Below, one piece after another: positions 678 through 61,335 of a stretch of DNA of 64,000 nt. Numbering within the stretch: the first letter of the stretch is position 1; the number at the start of each line of letters is the position of its first letter. The stretch is from the IMG/VR virus record IMGVR_UViG_3300008050_000026, positions 1 to 64,000 of that record; one strand, given 5' to 3'. The stretch is from a virus. Under the pieces are notes generated by a model. That model was not told where the DNA came from and ran no database searches. It saw nothing but the letters and a program-made list of their open reading frames with translations. Made by a program: the position numbers and the translations under genes.

Positions 678-704
678 TTTGGTAATAACATTTTATTAAA
701 TTTG
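678..704 (+). promoter_or_regulatory. Bacteroidota-type promoter before the winged-helix gene
   Basis: TAAATTTG at 697-704 matches the TAnnTTTG -7 element. A TTTG at 678-681 could be the -33 element, although the 15-base spacer is shorter than the usual 19 or so. The start codon at 740 lies 35 bases downstream. Confidence 0.45.
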
Positions 705-10888: not shown

Positions 10889-11263
10889 ATGAACAACACT
10901 ATCAAGATCTTGGCCCAGTACGAGGAAAACTACGCTTGGGCCGATTGGGATGGCAAAGGGGAATGTCCCCAAGGCTGGAAGTTCAAGGGGTCAGCCACCC
11001 TTGAGGTAACACTTTCAGATGATGCCAGATGGTTGAACGGTGAGGACATCGCCAAGGCAGCCAAGTTAATATGTGAACAACGATCAGGGGACTCCACGCG
11101 ATTGACCTATGTCAGCTATGAAATTCCTGAGTCAGTTGATTGGGAAGTTACGGAGGATGAATGGGAAAAGGCCTTGAAAGAGGCCAATCCTCCTCAGGAG
11201 GATATGTTCGGTCCAGATGAATTGGATCCAGCTGGAGGTTATGGTTTACATTCACACGTTTAA
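10889..11263 (+). CDS. Hypothetical acidic protein (124 aa)
   Basis: The product starts MNNTIKILAQYEENYAWADW and is acidic with many tryptophans, ending in a Pro/Gly/His tail. The N-terminal pattern (ILAQYEENY, then GWKFKGSATLEV) recalls small phage and plasmid proteins of unknown role. Base composition here is visibly less AT-rich than in the neighbours, which could mean a separate origin. No function is assigned. Confidence 0.5.
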   Translation: MNNTIKILAQYEENYAWADWDGKGECPQGWKFKGSATLEVTLSDDARWLNGEDIAKAAKLICEQRSGDSTRLTYVSYEIPESVDWEVTEDEWEKALKEANPPQEDMFGPDELDPAGGYGLHSHV

Positions 11264-11273
11264 TTAGATAGAT

Positions 11274-11522
11274 ATGAAAAAGGAAAAATCGCACGAATGG
11301 GAAACAGTTTGGTCCCCTATGATATGGGGAATTGGAATTGCAATTGCAATTTGCTTATTGGCTTGGGGGTACATAAGTTTGATGGCCACAAAACATAAGG
11401 CACATAGAGCCACCCTACCAAAGATCGAGGAGTTCAGATCGGTCCAAGTACTAACAATCCAAGGCGACACCGTCACTATTAGAGGTGGAGCTACATGTCA
11501 CATCTATAAGGAATTGAAATAA
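11274..11522 (+). CDS. Small single-pass membrane protein (82 aa)
   Basis: A charged N-terminus is followed by one transmembrane helix (MIWGIGIAIAICLLAWGYI, residues about 16-34) and a soluble tail ending VLTIQGDTVTIRGGATCHIY. It shares one base with the next start (TAATG). No family is recognised; it could be an inner-membrane accessory protein. Confidence 0.5.
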   Translation: MKKEKSHEWETVWSPMIWGIGIAIAICLLAWGYISLMATKHKAHRATLPKIEEFRSVQVLTIQGDTVTIRGGATCHIYKELK

Positions 11523-11776
11523 TGCCAAAGATCAAAAAGAAATTTCCAACCAACGGGGACTTGGAACCATTTTTCAGCCCAATTGATATTAATCAAATGA
11601 ATGCTTTGAAAGGAACCAACACTTGCAGGGTTTATGTGGACCGTTTCGGCAATGGGTACATGGTATCACCAAAACCTAAGTACAAAAACGACCATTACCC
11701 ACGTGAATACAAATTAGAATTTCAACAAATGGAAGCGAACGGCAAAGGTGGCTGGTGGTTTCCACAACCAAAATAA
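11522..11776 (+). CDS. Hypothetical protein (84 aa)
   Basis: The product is basic and aromatic, with RVYVDRFGNGYMVSPKPKY and a closing GGWWFPQPK. The start ATG overlaps the previous stop by one base. No family is recognised. Confidence 0.45.
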   Translation: MPKIKKKFPTNGDLEPFFSPIDINQMNALKGTNTCRVYVDRFGNGYMVSPKPKYKNDHYPREYKLEFQQMEANGKGGWWFPQPK

Positions 11777-11780
11777 GATC

Positions 11781-12221
11781 ATGAAAACAGATATTGAAAG
11801 AGTGAAAGAATACCTGATTTCAGCTGGAGGAGCAGCTGAGTTCCATACCTTGAACGACCTTTGCCTTAGTGTAACAGGTGAAGGGGAAGTCGTAAGGGTT
11901 GTCAAATGTAAAGTTACTGACGACAATCCTTTTGGTGTAAAGGATGCCCCACATGGGATAGGACCTTTGCAAATGAATGATTTGATTGTCATTGTCAAGG
12001 AGGAAATGTTCAAGAAAAAGATAATGAACAAGTTTCAGAAGATAACTGGACATCATTTCTATGAACAAGCCCAGGTACTTCCAATGAAGTTACTGAAAAC
12101 TGTTCAAACATTGAACAACGAATTTGGGGATAAAAGGCAATACGCTCCATTGTTCATGAATGGTGATTGTGTAAAATTTCATACTGAGTCCACAAAGGTA
12201 CTTGCTGCCCGAACATTGTAA
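11781..12221 (+). CDS. Hypothetical protein (146 aa)
   Basis: The ATG at 11781, five bases after the preceding stop, gives MKTDIERVKEYLISAGG; an in-frame upstream ATG at 11748 would lie inside the previous gene and is not needed. The middle has VVRVVKCKVTDDNPFGVKDA and a helical part follows. No family is recognised. The stop codon is itself the first part of the promoter at 12219-12240. Confidence 0.5.
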   Translation: MKTDIERVKEYLISAGGAAEFHTLNDLCLSVTGEGEVVRVVKCKVTDDNPFGVKDAPHGIGPLQMNDLIVIVKEEMFKKKIMNKFQKITGHHFYEQAQVLPMKLLKTVQTLNNEFGDKRQYAPLFMNGDCVKFHTESTKVLAARTL

Positions 12222-12240
12222 TAAGAAATTATTATATTTG
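12219..12240 (+). promoter_or_regulatory. Two-block phage promoter before the candidate ncRNA
   Basis: The block TAATAAG, three bases, then TTATTATATTTG matches the two-block motif seen before the replication genes. The final TATATTTG (12233-12240) is the -7 element. Transcription would start near 12245 and run into the stem-loop RNA at 12264-12355. Confidence 0.55.
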
Positions 12241-12244
12241 GTGT

Positions 12245-12360
12245 GTGACAAGGAAAGAGGTCATGGACCAGAGCATCCTTGAAATACCAACAACAGTATG
12301 CCGAACTTCGGTTCTTTGCATCAGAAACGGTTAAATCATGTTTTGCTCTGGTCCAATTTT
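12245..12360 (+). ncRNA. Candidate structured small RNA with UUCG-capped hairpin
   Basis: A perfect 12-base complement, TGGACCAGAGCA (12264-12275) and TGCTCTGGTCCA (12344-12355), closes a 68-base interior. Inside is a hairpin with GAAC-TTCG-GTTC (12303-12314), a classic stable UUCG tetraloop, extended by ATGC/GCAT (12298-12301 with 12318-12321). A T-rich stretch follows the closing stem, as in a terminator. A promoter lies just upstream. A 23-codon frame (ATG at 12263) also fits inside, so a leader peptide or an attenuator cannot be excluded. No known RNA family is recognised, including hammerhead: no CUGANGA core is present. Confidence 0.5.
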
Positions 12361-12361
12361 G

Positions 12362-12369
12362 TAAATTTG
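12362..12369 (+). promoter_or_regulatory. -7 element TAAATTTG just before the 68-aa gene
   Basis: TAAATTTG ends seven bases before the ATG at 12377, leaving almost no leader. It follows the candidate RNA directly. Confidence 0.45.
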
Positions 12370-12376
12370 TAAACTA

Positions 12377-12583
12377 ATGCCAACAGTTATACTTATCGAT
12401 AAAGATCTTAAAGATTGGGTTCATAATCATGAAGTCCCATTTGCACATAGGACAGGTGATGATCTACCTGAAAAGAAACTAACTGTTGATTTCAATAAGA
12501 CATATCGTGTATATGAGAACAAACGAGAAGTCCTCATGACTGCTTCTTCATCTGAAGCAATCGACAAATACAATTCAATCTAA
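12377..12583 (+). CDS. Small hypothetical protein (68 aa)
   Basis: The product reads MPTVILIDKDLKDWVHNHEV and ends SSEAIDKYNSI; it looks like a small folded alpha/beta domain. Its last base is shared with the next start. No family is recognised. Confidence 0.45.
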   Translation: MPTVILIDKDLKDWVHNHEVPFAHRTGDDLPEKKLTVDFNKTYRVYENKREVLMTASSSEAIDKYNSI

Positions 12584-12819
12584 TGGCTAAGCAAAGAAAA
12601 AGCAAGAAAAAACATCATTTTTTAGTAAAAGATTGCAAGGTTGGTGATACAATCATCATTACATCTACTGATATTGGTAAGGATCGAGTAAATTGGCCAA
12701 CAATTCGAGATGGTATAATTGCGAAAGCTAAAGATCTTGGATGTTTCAAAGATCTAACGTTGGAAAATATTGATGATGGTACTGAAAATAAAGTCAAAGT
12801 AATGTTCTATGAAGCTTGA
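12583..12819 (+). CDS. Small hypothetical basic protein (78 aa)
   Basis: A Lys-rich N-terminus (MAKQRKSKKKHHFLV) is followed by a compact alpha/beta pattern (VGDTIIITSTDIGKDRVNW, then DGIIAKAKDLG). It overlaps the next gene by 11 bases. No family is recognised. Confidence 0.45.
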   Translation: MAKQRKSKKKHHFLVKDCKVGDTIIITSTDIGKDRVNWPTIRDGIIAKAKDLGCFKDLTLENIDDGTENKVKVMFYEA

Positions 12820-13546
12820 TATTGTCATCCCATTGGGGATGGAAGGAATGGGATGGGATGATAATGAATTGAAATATGCATTGCGATCCATTGAAAAAAA
12901 CTTCAAAGATCTTGGTCAAGTATGGATCATAGGATATAAGCCAAATTGGTTGGTGAATGTAAAGTATATCCAAGCATTCGATCCATATAAGCACAACAAA
13001 GATGCTAACCTGATCAATAAGATAATCCTTGCGTGTCAGCAAGATGAATTATCTGAACAATTCCTATTCACATCTGATGATCATTTCATAATGAAACCTG
13101 TGGATGCTTCATGGTTTGATAGGCCATTGATGGACAATAGCCAGATGAAATTTGACAGAAATAAGAAATTGAACAGATGGCAACAAAGATTGGTTCAAAC
13201 TGAGGCAGCATGTTTGGCAAGGTCTCGCCCATCGAATTGTTACGAGGCACATGTACCATATAAATTCAACAAGCGATTATATCCTCATTTTATGCTTCAA
13301 TTCGACTATGGCGAGGGCCTTGGGTATACATTGGCTTCTCCATATTTCAATTCAGTTCAATTAGAATATCAGGAACCTGAAGAAAATACTGTTGCCAGAG
13401 TCAATCATAAGGTCCAGTCACGAGAAGAATTGGATGGACTTGTGAAGGATAAGATGTTCTTCAACTATTCAACAGTTGCATTTGACGATACAATTAAGAC
13501 ATTCCTTGCGGAAAGATTTACAGAAAAGAGTAAATTTGAAGCATGA
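12809..13546 (+). CDS. Stealth/glycosyltransferase-like protein (245 aa)
   Basis: The N-terminus (MKLDIVIPLGMEGMGWDDNE, then LKYALRSIEKNFKDLGQVWI) and the segment EQFLFTSDDHFIMKPVD resemble the conserved regions of Stealth-type hexose-phosphate transferases and related glycosyltransferases, where the acidic pair binds metal and nucleotide sugar. It is the third carbohydrate-active enzyme in 5 kb. The start overlaps the previous gene by 11 bases. The substrate cannot be read from the sequence. Confidence 0.6.
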   Translation: MKLDIVIPLGMEGMGWDDNELKYALRSIEKNFKDLGQVWIIGYKPNWLVNVKYIQAFDPYKHNKDANLINKIILACQQDELSEQFLFTSDDHFIMKPVDASWFDRPLMDNSQMKFDRNKKLNRWQQRLVQTEAACLARSRPSNCYEAHVPYKFNKRLYPHFMLQFDYGEGLGYTLASPYFNSVQLEYQEPEENTVARVNHKVQSREELDGLVKDKMFFNYSTVAFDDTIKTFLAERFTEKSKFEA

Positions 13547-27773: not shown

Positions 27774-27781
27774 TAGATTTG
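27774..27781 (+). promoter_or_regulatory. -7 element TAGATTTG immediately before the protease gene
   Basis: TAGATTTG ends five bases before the ATG at 27787, in a 15-base gap. If used, transcription would start at or next to the start codon. Confidence 0.4.
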
Positions 27782-30967: not shown

Positions 30968-30995
30968 AAGGGATCCTATCATGGGTCCCTTTTTT
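30968..30995 (+). terminator. Rho-independent terminator after the capsid gene
   Basis: AAGGGATCC and GGGTCCCTT form a nine-base stem (one U-G pair) around a TATCAT loop. The 3' arm runs directly into six T residues. It is the clearest terminator in the window and sits 26 bases after the capsid stop. Confidence 0.85.
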
Positions 30996-37823: not shown

Positions 37824-37845
37824 TAATAAAAAATGATTATTTTTG
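37824..37845 (+). promoter_or_regulatory. Two-block phage promoter before the chaperone gene
   Basis: TAATAAA, three bases, then TGATTATTTTTG fits the two-block motif with one mismatch. The -7 element is TATTTTTG (37838-37845), and a TTTG at 37815-37818 lies at the usual 19-base -33 spacing. The ATG is 18 bases downstream. Confidence 0.6.
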
Positions 37846-57420: not shown

Positions 57421-57888
57421 ATGGGATCAAGAAAACTATCGTTATCCGAATTACTTAAAAATCTACAGTACGAATATATTTGTTGTGAAATCAGGTCGAA
57501 GACTTATGTTCATGAAAAACATCGAATATATTGGGAAAAAGTAGCAGGATATAAAAAAGAGAAGATCATCAATATTGCTGAAAAGCAAAATGCGTCTTCC
57601 ATATTTTCAGATGATAACATCAATAAGTCGTTTAAGGACATGATCTATTCAGGTTATGGACTACCTGCATTTGTGTATAAGAACGAACAGGATCGTGAAG
57701 TTCAGGAACAGTGGGATATTTTGAATTTTTTCTACAGGGGAACAGAAGTCGAATTTGTTATTGATGGAAACATAAAGAAAGGAAAAGCTATGTTTACAGA
57801 CTCTGAAAAAAGACGAGTAGAAATTAAGGAATTTGATGGTGAAAAATACAATGTGTTCTTTGAGTCCATCAAACGAGATATTTGGTAA
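57421..57888 (+). CDS. Hypothetical protein of the replication operon (155 aa)
   Basis: The ATG at 57421 comes two bases after the primase stop; an in-frame TTG at 57415 is an alternative. The product starts MGSRKLSLSELLKNLQYEYI CCEI and has a C-terminal beta part with GKAMFTDSEKRRVEIKEFDG. No family is recognised. Its stop codon forms the first bases of the polymerase promoter. Confidence 0.5.
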   Translation: MGSRKLSLSELLKNLQYEYICCEIRSKTYVHEKHRIYWEKVAGYKKEKIINIAEKQNASSIFSDDNINKSFKDMIYSGYGLPAFVYKNEQDREVQEQWDILNFFYRGTEVEFVIDGNIKKGKAMFTDSEKRRVEIKEFDGEKYNVFFESIKRDIW

Positions 57889-57907
57889 TAAAAATTTATT
57901 ATTTTTG
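57886..57907 (+). promoter_or_regulatory. Two-block phage promoter before the polymerase gene
   Basis: TAATAAA, AAT, then TTATTATTTTTG. The -7 element is TATTTTTG (57900-57907). The polymerase ATG lies five bases downstream, predicting a leaderless or nearly leaderless transcript. Confidence 0.65.
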
Positions 57908-61313: not shown

Positions 61314-61335
61314 TAATAAAATATTATTATTTTTG
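61314..61335 (+). promoter_or_regulatory. Two-block phage promoter before the oxidoreductase gene
   Basis: TAATAAA, ATA, then TTATTATTTTTG. The -7 element is TATTTTTG (61328-61335), five bases before the ATG at 61341. A TTTG at 61303-61306 could be the -33 element (21-base spacer). Confidence 0.65.

Follow-up and report, generated by a model that had tools for sequence, protein, structure and literature searches.

Does the 155-base intergenic gap downstream of gene 11781 hold a gene for an independent structured RNA, as a first-pass annotation of this phage genome had proposed? The window, i.e. the whole stretch of 64,000 nucleotides analysed here, corresponds to the initial 64 kb of an IMG/VR virus record of 97,074 bp. 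Genes for a portal protein (phrog_12), a head maturation protease and a major head protein (phrog_752) mark the record as a tailed phage; its head protein shares at most 65% identity with those of other uncultured phages and 61% with the counterpart of Chryseobacterium phage MA9V-3. Shine-Dalgarno (SD) sites precede just 8 of the 96 phage genes, and TAnnTTTG, the -7 element known from Bacteroidota (PMC7366714, PMC6847099, PMC9723704), is found upstream of many start codons. Both features make it very probable that the host belongs to the Bacteroidota, whose messages naturally lack SD sites (PMC6847099).

The gap belongs to a variable region that extends from the portal gene to gene 12809-13546 (phrog_7999, with a weak Pfam match to Stealth_CR2 under the curated cut-off) and is occupied by different genes in related phages. 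The protein of gene 12377 has no match in phages and none in viral contigs; that of gene 11781 has none in phages and one weak match (31% over part of its length) in viral contigs. Coordinates of all features of the locus are given in the table.

Features of the RNA locus and its flanks (positions in the window)
Feature	Position	Strand	Remarks
Upstream gene	11781..12221	+	146 aa; stop codon abuts P1; no PHROG, Pfam or PADLOC match
Promoter P1, TAATAAGAAATTATTATATTTG	12219..12240	+	phage-specific dyad and Bacteroidota -7 element TATATTTG (12233-12240)
Predicted structured transcript	12245..12360	+	about 116 nt; 3' end uncertain, possibly to about 12370
23-codon open frame, MDQSILEIPTTVCRTSVLCIRNG*	12263..12334	+	judged probably not a gene
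5' arm of closing stem, TGGACCAGAGCA	12264..12275	+	inverted repeat I12, 100% complementary
Inner hairpin, AUGC-C-GAAC-UUCG-GUUC-UUU-GCAU	12298..12321	+	C(UUCG)G tetraloop; from sequence and minimum-energy fold
3' arm of closing stem, TGCTCTGGTCCA	12344..12355	+	inverted repeat I12, 100% complementary
A/T-rich tail, ATTTTGTAAATTTGTAAACTA	12356..12376	+	weak terminator-like U stretch overlapping P2
Promoter P2, -7 element TAAATTTG	12362..12369	+	7 nt before the ATG of gene 12377
Downstream gene	12377..12583	+	68 aa; no PHROG, Pfam or PADLOC match

The promoter P1 and its family

P1 fits the family pattern TAATAANNNNTTATTATNTTTG with zero mismatches. The two-block promoter noticed earlier is present: its downstream block is the Bacteroidota -7 element TATATTTG, and its upstream block is a phage-specific TAATAA..TTATTA dyad and not a clear -33 box. 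With the published numbering, in which the -7 element covers -12 to -5 (PMC9723704), the predicted +1 of P1 is 12245, identical to the left coordinate of the first-pass annotation.

The family follows the form TAATAA-N4-TTATTAT-N-TTT(G/A) and counts about 13 sites, five of them in the window (683-704, 12219-12240, 37824-37845, 57886-57907 and 61314-61335) and more beyond it. Besides the box at 12233, seven sites share the dyad directly upstream of the -7 box. When all 194,084 positions of the two strands are scored with a weight matrix trained on these seven, 12233 being held out, 12233 comes 9th, behind six of the training sites and two new sites, both located before genes. Allowing up to two mismatches, TAATAANNNNTTATTATNTTTG has 14 forward and 5 reverse matches in the phage, against 0 for the reversed control. 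The family is essentially absent from the 21 related phage records, three of which contain any match, one or two each. Perfect matches number only three in the phage, i.e. P1 and two sister copies 5 nt ahead of the DNA polymerase gene (57913) and of gene 61341. Such a dyad hints at an activator or repressor encoded by the phage itself.

The -7 boxes starting at 27774, 51338, 54477, 57900 and 61328 end 4-5 nt before an ATG, and the corresponding genes are predicted to give leaderless messages, a type reported as rare in Bacteroidota hosts (3.7-5.5%; PMC7366714, PMC9723704).

Each of the 21 other promoters examined is followed, 0-43 nt past its box, by the start of an ORF of 40 aa or more, whereas behind P1 the first such ORF begins only after 136 nt, at 12377. 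We gathered the 22 promoters compared here from the -7-box listing and the weight-matrix ranking, and the set is not exhaustive.

Stem, fold and 3' end

Both arms of the perfect 12-base stem described earlier are present, separated by 68 nt and fully complementary, and the GAAC-UUCG-GUUC hairpin extended by ATGC/GCAT is likewise found, in the sequence (ATGC 12298-12301, GAAC 12303-12306, TTCG 12307-12310, GTTC 12311-12314, GCAT 12318-12321) as well as in the fold. Among perfect stems with loops of up to 100 nt, no other in the window reaches 12 bp, or 11 bp combined with 6 G+C. In order-2 Markov simulations, 64 kb of sequence contains 0.95 perfect stems of 12 bp or longer; those that also have 7 or more G+C number only 0.025, and the window has exactly one of them. 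The length of the stem is by itself ordinary and its G+C content is the unusual part; the earlier statement that such a stem exceeds chance holds for stems with at least 7 G+C and fails on length. The same statement on the UUCG tetraloop is not borne out, as the + strand of the window carries two UUCG-capped 4-bp hairpins where, by our estimate from base composition, about one is expected.

The RNA fold of 12262-12358, a stretch picked by hand, has -32.4 kcal/mol (z -5.3). The promoter-defined stretch 12245-12360 has -33.8 (z -3.1), matched by 3 of 1000 shuffles, and ranks first in structure among the 22 stretches downstream of promoters (z -3.08; next -2.63), a comparison in which the stretch was set by the promoter and not by the stem, while the locus itself was first noticed by its stem. 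A scan of the whole 97-kb record finds other 100-nt windows that fold equally well, many of them within genes, so fold energy alone would not make the case. The lowest 100-nt fold energy of the whole record occurs at 10906-11005, inside the 124-aa gene 10889-11263, where local G+C reaches up to 0.57; this G+C-rich stretch was possibly acquired recently.

The 23-codon frame scores -0.20 per codon, where in-frame sequence has +0.26 and out-of-frame sequence -0.29, and a score as low occurs in 2.6% of real in-frame stretches. The frame is probably non-coding.

The 12-bp stem is followed by AATTTTG, a broken U run, and the tail is not among the results of a terminator scan that allows only 3-8-nt loops. 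A canonical intrinsic terminator at the stem was rejected on its 68-nt loop and broken U run; short loops and long U runs characterise the terminator-like hairpins found elsewhere in the phage, for instance near 30970 and 95210. Of the T-rich end in the first-pass annotation, the letters AATTTTGTAAATTTG are there, but they are weak as a terminator and overlap the -7 element TAAATTTG.

Searches for relatives

No Rfam 15 family reaches its gathering threshold, in agreement with the earlier impression that the RNA matches no family. A tRNA or tmRNA was dismissed for lack of an ARAGORN or Rfam match in the window, and a known riboswitch because no Rfam family matches. Blastn returned no homologue of the locus or the RNA from phages or plasmids, only chance-level 22-nt matches; a simulation with uniform random substitutions and an approximated search space suggests that, at E<=10, such a search would recover about 93% of the copies with 80% identity and 52% of those with 70%. 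The exact 11-bp arm pattern does not occur in viral contigs. The exact 9-bp arm pattern does so six times, with unrelated insides and twice within genes, a number that we estimate to be compatible with chance. A single match to the inner-hairpin pattern, in a phage of 69% GC, was judged to be chance. Among the 9-bp arm matches, intergenic hairpins of two other phages (L112:1447-1543, with a 15-bp stem, and L110:930-1020, with a stem of 14 pairs) have the core ACCAGAGCA/TGCTCTGGT in common; neither aligns to the locus beyond the stem, and the likeness is probably chance.

A covariance model, of short reach as it is built on one sequence, gave nothing convincing in the other loci compared or in 50 related, mostly fragmentary records. 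Portal proteins of the closest related records are merely about 50-55% identical, and intergenic sequence is therefore not expected to align. That no homologue was found says little in either direction and is not proof of absence. Inside the phage genome the element has no second copy, and shuffled segments are predicted to pair with phage gene starts as well as the RNA's own unpaired segments do.

Candidate functions and known RNAs

We tentatively read the locus, with confidence just short of even, as a gene for an orphan small non-coding RNA in a phage that infects Bacteroidota, because P1 is a perfect family member with no ORF behind it, the next gene has its own promoter, the stretch is the most structured of the 22, its stem is G+C-rich and the 23-codon frame appears non-coding. 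Two parallels also speak for it, namely the intergenic RNAs common in Bacteroides hosts and the RNA genes that a related phage has in the same variable region. The independent structured RNA of the first-pass annotation thereby keeps its support from P1, the missing ORF, the fold and the non-coding frame, and loses that from the UUCG argument and the T-rich end; above all, it gains none from conservation of the pairing, since no homologue was recovered. Promoter, missing ORF and fold are read from the sequence itself; transcription of the locus, the place of the 3' end and action in trans are inferred. Host RNA polymerase (sigma-A type), probably assisted by a phage factor reading the TAATAA/TTATTA dyad, would start at about 12245 and yield an RNA of about 116-130 nt. 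Its ends would be joined, and the RNA protected, by the perfect 12-bp stem, the C(UUCG)G hairpin would nucleate the inner fold, and two mostly unpaired strands of 23-25 nt, together with the purine-rich 5' end (ACAAGGAAAGAGG), would remain exposed as a possible pairing or protein-binding surface. The most likely action of the RNA would be in trans during infection, with an RNA of host or phage, or an RNA-binding protein, as the target. It is quite unlikely that it represents a new class of trans-acting phage RNA in Bacteroidota phages that rewires host or phage gene expression; such a class would be expressed from one of the three perfect-consensus promoters, alongside DNA polymerase.

Counting against the small-RNA reading are the failure to find a homologue or covariation and a pairing with phage gene starts at the level of shuffled segments; its weakest link is the 3' end, which is not a canonical terminator, and transcription from P1 may run on into 12377. 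The main rival is consequently a structured 5' leader of the operon 12377-13546, in which transcription from P1 reads through, P2 serves the same genes as a second promoter, and the role of the long stem is to make the messenger more stable or, like an attenuator, to regulate read-through or translation. We consider this somewhat unlikely, but it stays serious because the AATTTTGTAAATTTG tail is no canonical terminator. Locus and operon lie on the same strand, no strong terminator separates the stem from the ATG at 12377, and there is weak pairing between the folded 5' end and the tail (near 12361-12370); gene 12377, however, has its own near-leaderless promoter, the distance from box to ATG would be 136 nt as against 0-43 nt at the 21 other promoters, and no known riboswitch or leader family matches. 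That the element instead marks a boundary, either as the terminator of genes 10889-12221 or as an inverted repeat that works at the DNA level and borders a cargo block, with the promoter firing into the next gene only, is improbable: the locus does end a block of orphan genes, and its 12-bp stem is followed by AATTTTG, but the 68-nt loop and broken U run differ from the hairpins near 30970 and 95210, P1 sits between the upstream genes and the stem, and the genome holds no second copy.

Equally improbable is a lack of any function, i.e. a decayed gene behind a surviving promoter with a stem formed by chance. By chance alone, 64 kb would hold about one perfect 12-bp stem of any composition, equally good folds occur in other 100-nt windows of the genome and no homologue was found, but a G+C-rich stem of such length is about 40-fold rarer and this one lies directly behind one of only three perfect promoters. 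A 23-residue peptide encoded from 12263, be it a microprotein or a leader peptide, is very improbable. Its ATG lies 22 nt past the P1 box, inside the leader range of the phage, and is preceded by the SD-like AGGAAAGAGG; against it, codon usage matches out-of-frame sequence, the ATG is partly within the 12-bp stem, and SD sites precede few genes of this phage (8 of 96) and are naturally lacking from Bacteroidota messages (PMC6847099).

Should the transcript exist, the locus offers a defined, promoter-anchored candidate for a phage small RNA, along with a promoter family specific to the phage and probably indicative of a phage transcription programme; even if there is no such transcript, the family can be used as a result in its own right. 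A narrow search of the open-access literature found no papers on phage-encoded small RNAs in Bacteroidetes.

Like structured mRNA leaders of the riboswitch or attenuator type, the locus lies upstream of a co-oriented gene, but that gene's own promoter intervenes and no known family matches. With the RNA cargo of related phages (tRNA, tmRNA, permuted tmRNA) it would have in common that both are RNA genes, but by ARAGORN and Rfam it is neither tRNA nor tmRNA. In one related phage (G004), this same region of variable content, which separates the portal gene from the 12809 homologue, includes a tRNA-Thr gene and a tmRNA. Genes for tmRNA are located at L022:9031-9446 in this phage and at L028:22766-23124 in Chryseobacterium phage MA9V-3, the latter matching the permuted tmRNA of Rfam (RF04321). 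MA9V-3 also has a non-coding stretch of about 900 nt (L028:37655-38558) in which several tRNA-like elements lie; some contain unusually long inserts, and ARAGORN or Rfam calls only some of the elements. Intergenic RNAs of a comparable kind are common in Bacteroides hosts, among them GibS of about 145 nt (PMC7366714). Unlike these, the present locus is phage-encoded, has a phage-specific promoter dyad and lacks a clear intrinsic terminator; like them, it is intergenic, has its own promoter and is predicted to be about 100-150 nt in size and folded, a likeness in general features.
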